Below, in pieces: positions 45,161 through 45,505 of a stretch of DNA of 64,000 nucleotides. Source of the DNA: Kineosporiaceae bacterium. Lineage in GTDB: Bacteria; Actinomycetota; Actinomycetes; Actinomycetales; Kineosporiaceae. The DNA lies in the NCBI GenBank assembly GCA_016794595.1, contig JAEUJN010000027.1, forward strand, positions 1 to 64,000. The letters run 5' to 3'. Position 1 is the first letter of the stretch. Each line of letters opens with the position of its first letter. Under the pieces are notes generated by a model. It worked only from the letters and a program-made list of their open reading frames with translations. It was not told where the DNA came from and made no database searches. Position numbers and translations under genes: made by a program.

Positions 45161-45203
45161 CTGACTGAGCTACTGGGGATCGCCCTAGGCTGGGTGGGGT
45201 CCA
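45161..45203 (+). promoter_or_regulatory. Promoter of the tRNA gene
   Basis: TAGGCT (45186-45191) lies 12 nt before the first tRNA base, with CTGACT (45161-45166) as a weak -35 19 nt further up. Confidence 0.45.
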
Positions 45204-45276
45204 GCCCCCGTAGCCCAATGGCAGAGGCAGGCGCCTTAAAAGCGCTCCAGTGCGGGTTCGAGTCCCGCCGGGGGTA
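45204..45276 (+). tRNA. tRNA with UAA anticodon (Leu-like) but short variable loop
   Basis: 73 nt fold into a complete cloverleaf. Acceptor GCCCCCG / CGGGGGT (G1-U72 wobble, six other pairs), D-arm GCC...GGC with GGCAGA, anticodon stem GGCGC / GCGCT, loop CTTAAAA with anticodon TAA at 45237-45239, variable loop of only five nt (CCAGT), T-arm GCGGG-TTCGAGT-CCCGC, discriminator A. The three-pair D-stem, the GGNAGA D-loop and A73 are those of leucine tRNAs, but normal tRNA-Leu has a long variable arm. CCA is not encoded in full (CCG follows). It would read UUA codons, which are very rare here. Confidence 0.85.
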
Positions 45277-45315
45277 CCGGGAGACGCGCAGCGCCTCGCG
45301 AGGCGCACCCACCCC

Positions 45316-45366
45316 ATCGAGAGTGCTGATCACACCCGATAGGTGGGGGAGATCAGCACTCTCGAT
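45316..45366. repeat. Inverted repeat with 16-bp perfect arms, related to family A
   Basis: ATCGAGAGTGCTGATC (45316-45331) and its exact complement (45351-45366), spacer 19 nt. The arm CGAGAGTGCTGATCAC differs from the family A arm CGAAAGTGCATGATCAC by one substitution and one missing base, though arm orientation about the centre is reversed. It lies 39 nt after the tRNA and could end its transcription. Confidence 0.75.
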
Positions 45367-45505
45367 GTCACGAGTTGGACCCGATCACCCGGACGGCGCT
45401 GCGCGGCGGCGTCCGAGGGAACCAAATCGGGACCTTCGGCATTACGTTGATACCGAGCGGGCAGCGGCCCGCTTCACCGACACGATCTCGACCATGGAGA
45501 GACCG
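45367..45505 (+). other. Leader region of the BI-1 family gene
   Basis: About 140 nt without a convincing gene. A TTGATAC motif near 45447 and AT-richer sequence around it may hold the promoter; GGAGAG at 45497-45502 is the RBS. Confidence 0.35.

Follow-up and report, generated by a model that had tools for sequence, protein, structure and literature searches.

Bacterial tRNA-Leu is usually described as a class II tRNA (PMC7609411, PMC4033280, PMC11559606), and for Mycobacterium tuberculosis only Leu-2, Leu-3, and Leu-5 have been named as having arms comparable to those of tRNA-Ser (PMC11541572). In E. coli, leucine identity resides in A73, A14, A15-U48, G18G19, and A20a, the anticodon and long arm are dispensable, and truncated, armless tRNAs are still charged (PMC9976931). 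Metazoan mitochondrial tRNA-Leu(UUR) also does without a long arm; A73 and A14 serve as its determinants, and it is charged by LeuRS in the absence of the arm (PMC9976931). An armless leucine tRNA of Actinobacteria has been remarked upon in passing, i.e., a tRNA-Leu(UAG) with a short variable loop that is borne on a mycobacterial cluster as an extra isoacceptor beside the normal copy (PMC6582537). Gene 115 (taa) of Streptomyces phage Yaboi, annotated as tRNA-Leu(taa) by its depositors, fits the same short-armed model as the tRNA described below (87.6 bits). Located at positions 1502-1575 of locus L373, it could supply a UUA reader that does not depend on the class II bldA tRNA of the host. We found only scattered remarks of this kind and no published account of a short arm across a whole group, in a literature search that covered few subscription journals.

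The window analyzed here, i.e., the whole 64,000-nt stretch of DNA from a Kineosporiaceae bacterium (contig JAEUJN010000027.1, assembly GCA_016794595.1), encodes a complete tRNA with a short variable loop (Table 1). The initial annotation had reported a leucine-type tRNA with a complete cloverleaf, a UAA anticodon, a leucine-like D arm, a CUUAAAA loop, A73, and a variable loop of five nucleotides instead of a long arm, and this description was borne out by cmscan, ARAGORN, and direct reading. The RF00005 match (45204-45276, + strand) scored 57 bits (E = 1.2e-9), the gathering threshold being 29, and ARAGORN called tRNA-Leu(taa) at 45204-45278 as the sole tRNA of the window. As read from the sequence, a 7-bp acceptor stem (GCCCCCG/CGGGGGU) with a G1-U72 wobble is followed by U8 and A9, a D stem of 3 bp, A26, an anticodon stem of 5 bp (GGCGC/GCGCU), and a T arm of 5 bp (GCGGG-UUCGAGU-CCCGC). 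CC is encoded 3' of A73, and the final A of CCA is absent. Class II tRNAs have a variable arm of at least 10 nt with a stem, and the loop here is 5 nt long. The better, long-armed fold that the initial annotation had allowed for was not predicted by single-strand folding, and there are no spare bases from which to build one. An allo-tRNA, with 8/4 or 9/3 base pairs in the acceptor and T arms, was ruled out, the window tRNA being 7/5.

Table 1. Features of the tRNA gene and its flanks in the window.
Feature	Position	Strand	Basis
Class I (short variable loop) tRNA-Leu(UAA), body to discriminator A73	45204..45276	+	cmscan RF00005, ARAGORN, model R1
D arm GCCC-AAUGGCAG-AGGC; C12-G23 pair, C13/A22 unpaired, A14 A15, G18 G19	45213..45228	+	sequence
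Anticodon UAA (positions 34-36), loop CUUAAAA	45237..45239	+	sequence, ARAGORN
5-nt variable loop CCAGU; last base U48 pairs with A15 (45218)	45247..45251	+	sequence, alignment A1
Discriminator base A73	45276..45276	+	sequence
Likely promoter CTGACT (45161-45166), 19-bp spacer, TAGGCT (45186-45191)	45161..45191	+	inferred from recurring hexamer
17-bp inverted repeat 3' of tRNA, possible terminator; arm motif AGAGTGCTGATC	45315..45367		folding z = -5.6

With the class II tRNA-Leu(UAA) species of E. coli (leuZ) and Streptomyces (bldA), the window tRNA shares the UAA anticodon, A73, A14, A15-U48, and a D loop of the form AA..GGNAGA, and like them it is a presumed LeuRS substrate. However, its variable loop has 5 nt against at least 10 nt in theirs, and it carries C12-G23, C13/A22, and A9 where they carry G12-C23, G13/A22, and G9. 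All E. coli leucine-identity positions that can be numbered unambiguously are present, the set of A73, A14, A15-U48, and G18G19 (PMC9976931) being complete. The metazoan mitochondrial tRNA is organellar and has a weak anticodon stem, whereas the window tRNA is bacterial, GC-rich, and stably folded; we claim no common descent between the two. Unlike the cluster-borne mycobacterial isoacceptor and the phage-borne Yaboi tRNA, it is a chromosomal tRNA and the sole UUA reader of its genome. Since annotators and databases already label such genes tRNA-Leu, the gene assignment itself is not new.

The genome from which the window derives comprises 4.95 Mb in 123 contigs and is 99.4% complete. All 43 of its tRNAs were run through ARAGORN, and class II tRNA-Leu occurred only with the anticodons CAA, GAG, UAG, and CAG; the class II tRNA-Leu(UAA) that the initial annotation had proposed searching for was not found. 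An anticodon-loop search of the whole genome for a further UAA tRNA matched only the window gene. Since a genome of this completeness yielded no other UAA tRNA, the window tRNA is not the second, atypical UUA decoder that it had been suspected to be. UUA had also been thought nearly absent, and it is: TTA is the rarest leucine codon, at 0.12 per 1000 (13 of 111,964 codons in the window and contig C38), and one of the 13 is the tRNA's own anticodon lying inside an over-extended ORF. The called genes of the window contain a single TTA, in the Alg14-like gene (Pfam PF08660). One LeuRS locus, cut by a contig end, scored above the bacterial family cut-off in this genome.

Whether such tRNAs are usual in this group had been left open, and here the short-armed tRNA-Leu(UAA) proved to be the rule. 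To survey the family and order, 58 genomes were searched with a pattern that allowed long as well as short variable loops, and one more genome was resolved separately. Among the UAA tRNAs sampled in the order, 51 of 57 were short-armed and 6 long-armed; by family, 17 of 20 had only the short form, 2 only the long form, and 1 both. The short form is also common in the wider class. An apparent lack of any UAA tRNA in 45 pattern-negative class members was in part an artefact of the pattern, as UAA tRNAs were found in a few of them and the UAA tRNA of one family, f33, has the anticodon loop CCUAAAA. The matches listed from a further bacterial scan include Mycobacterium, Nocardia, Rhodococcus, Gordonia, Corynebacterium, Nocardioides, Microbacterium, Arthrobacter, Bifidobacterium, Amycolatopsis, and Streptosporangium, among others. 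Also among them are scattered short-armed UAA tRNAs on contigs or MAGs labelled Planctomycetota, Rokubacteria, Deltaproteobacteria, Chthonomonadales, Acidobacteria, Synechococcus, and Christensenellaceae. The pattern used in that scan demanded a short loop, so that it speaks to presence and not to frequency, and some of the MAG labels could be mistaken. The group-wide short arm is at odds with the common description of bacterial tRNA-Leu as class II; it is the group that is unusual, the window tRNA being ordinary within it.

Several variants were seen along the way. In family f33 (two loci), the CCUAAAA loop of the tRNA-Leu(UAA) has C33 in place of the nearly universal U33. Four tRNA arrays, with 10 to 34 tRNAs on the stretches analyzed (L147, L200, L154, and L134), contain short-armed tRNA-Leu with the anticodons GAG, CAA, UAA, CAG, and UAG. 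In another genome from the family of the window's organism (G009, contig C313), short-armed tRNA-Leu(GAG) and tRNA-Leu(CAG) are adjacent, and the pattern detected no UAA tRNA in this 88% complete assembly. On four contigs labelled Rokubacteria, Deltaproteobacteria, or Planctomycetota (L113, L135, L110, and L191), the short-armed tRNA-Leu(UAA) follows tRNA-Cys, and on L113 tRNA-Gly precedes as well. The glyW-cysT-leuZ operon of E. coli has this same gene order, leuZ being class II.

A covariance model (R1) was built from 44 distinct short-armed sequences. It gave the window tRNA 94.7 bits, compared with about 64 at most for tRNAs of the same genome outside the family, and it also revealed short-armed versions with other anticodons in the class, CAA in several families and UAG in different ones. 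Two of these families are putatively Mycobacterium-like and Streptomyces-like, judging in part by sequence matches, and both the UAA and the CAA tRNA seem to be short-armed in the group that includes Mycolicibacterium smegmatis. In the 44 relatives, 99.0% of cells were paired, 17 of 20 pairs had changed on both sides, and covariation was 0.73 compared with 0.19 after shuffling. Since the relatives both conserve the fold and covary, the fold of the window tRNA is beyond chance. We then compiled 198 distinct short-armed leucine tRNAs; for those obtained with the scan pattern, GGNAGA and CTTAAA were imposed, and positions 12-15, 48, and 73 were free. Positions 12-23 were C-G in 195 and 13/22 were C/A in 193, A14 was invariant (198/198), and A73 was present in 197. 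The 15-48 pair was A-U in 191 and, kept by compensation, G-C in 4, and A14, A15, U48, and A73 occurred jointly in 190. The window tRNA belongs to this family by its C12-G23, C13/A22, AA..GGNAGAG, loop of about 5 nt, U48, and A73. By contrast, 12-23 was G-C in 14 of 16 long-armed leucine tRNAs and 13/22 was mostly G/A. From these counts, the short and long forms share the leucine marks and differ in a fixed D-arm pair. Since the D-arm signature is also present in four class I tRNAs that are not leucine tRNAs, and A14/A15/U48/A73 also occurs in some tRNAs for Lys, Gly, Ala, and Arg, neither feature is unique to leucine. An origin from tRNA-Lys or tRNA-Gly through one inserted D-arm base was considered and set aside; the D arms are similar, yet a low-support tree joins the short-armed with the long-armed leucine tRNAs.

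With high confidence, we regard the window tRNA as the ordinary and sole UUA-decoding leucine tRNA of the cell, housed in a class I body. The initial annotation had raised non-canonical charging. In this reading, the tRNA would receive an amino acid other than leucine, and UUA would have been reassigned in the lineage or have an ambiguous meaning there. A class I body would be suited to other synthetases than LeuRS, A15-U48 and A73 also occur in some class I tRNAs for Lys, Gly, Ala, and Arg, and reassignment of so rare a codon would be cheap. We examined decoding in a low-GC relative, G131 (47.9% GC; 800 kb read), in which the only UAA tRNA found is short-armed, by aligning proteins of the window's genome to it, E. 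coli proteins alone being too divergent. Of 155 conserved-context sites, TTA stood opposite Leu at 107, in keeping with the about 74-77% seen for other leucine codons, and a likelihood comparison favored Leu over the second-best amino acid by about 148 log units. With the divergent E. coli reference, the result pointed in the same direction but weakly (27 of 72 sites), and Leu could not be told apart from Ile when identity was filtered most strictly (n = 14). In the window's own genome, alignment was possible for only four TTA codons, of which two lay opposite Leu in well-aligned homologs and two in poor alignments. By these alignments, UUA is read as leucine in a relative with the same short-armed tRNA. 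Moreover, a tree built without the anticodon and variable loop groups short- and long-armed leucine tRNAs together and nearly all other isotypes apart, albeit with weak support. Charging with another amino acid is thus not supported, and we consider it highly improbable.

The tRNA might instead be an auxiliary or regulatory one beside a class II tRNA-Leu(UAA), e.g., a growth-phase switch like bldA of Streptomyces, where UUA is likewise the rarest leucine codon and bldA is regulatory (PMC4255298). Such a switch is a class II tRNA-Leu(UAA), which the window tRNA is not, and the partner that an auxiliary tRNA presupposes was not encountered in the nearly complete genome. The role of bldA may not reach beyond Streptomycineae, and TTA elsewhere lacks the positional bias (PMC4255298). 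Since the short-armed tRNA-Leu(UAA) is single-copy, structurally conserved, and the only UUA reader found across the order, it looks like a housekeeping tRNA, and the regulatory role suggested in the initial annotation is very unlikely, although rare UUA codons may mildly throttle a few genes. That the gene is a decayed tRNA or a tRNA-like remnant could be argued from its G1-U72 wobble, its C13/A22 mismatch, and the unencoded final A of CCA. The first of these, however, occurs in 29 of 165 family members and the second is common family-wide, while the fold covaries, a -10-like hexamer recurs upstream, and the UUA codons that do exist have no other reader that we could find. We give a remnant practically no credence.

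As the ordinary UUA reader, the window tRNA is most likely a normal leucyl-tRNA charged by LeuRS. It would be transcribed from its own promoter, and, since only CC is encoded, its CCA end would be completed enzymatically. The single bacterial-type LeuRS would then charge it with leucine, presumably recognizing, as in E. coli, A73 together with the D-arm and elbow elements A14, A15-U48, and G18G19 with no need of the long arm, and the charged tRNA would decode the rare UUA codons as leucine. A broader history is conceivable, if rather doubtful: short-armed leucine tRNAs (UAA, CAA, and UAG, with CAG and GAG in arrays) may all belong to a single ancient lineage of bacteria-borne tRNAs, recognizable by C12-G23 and C13/A22. 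This lineage would have displaced the long-armed ones in most Actinobacteria and would travel between phyla on phages and tRNA arrays, perhaps since a tRNA that has lost the arm escapes enzymes that grip it, e.g., some toxins.

These results indicate that most of the order and much of the class decode UUA without a long arm, against reviews in which class II tRNA-Leu is without exception. They confirm in nature the laboratory finding that the LeuRS of bacteria can do without the long arm, and they bear on tRNA classifiers and on reasoning about toxins that bind the variable arm in mycobacteria. Sister families with short and long arms also provide a comparative series in which the structural class changes and the amino acid does not.

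The flanks of the gene suggest transcription from its own promoter. A -10-like hexamer, TAGGCT here and TAGCCT-, TAACCT-, or TAATCT-like in relatives, lies 5' of the tRNA in most family members. The AGAGTGCTGATC motif of the downstream inverted repeat had 11 matches in the genome compared with none in a reversed control, and the repeat was also seen on contigs C38, C47, C68, C79, C88, and C116. In three genomic occurrences, both perfect arms were present at the same 31-bp spacing; the repeat is possibly a dispersed hairpin element or a common terminator. A uracil-DNA glycosylase gene lies upstream of the tRNA and a Bax-inhibitor-1 gene downstream, and at other actinobacterial loci the tRNA is again adjoined by one or both of these neighbors.
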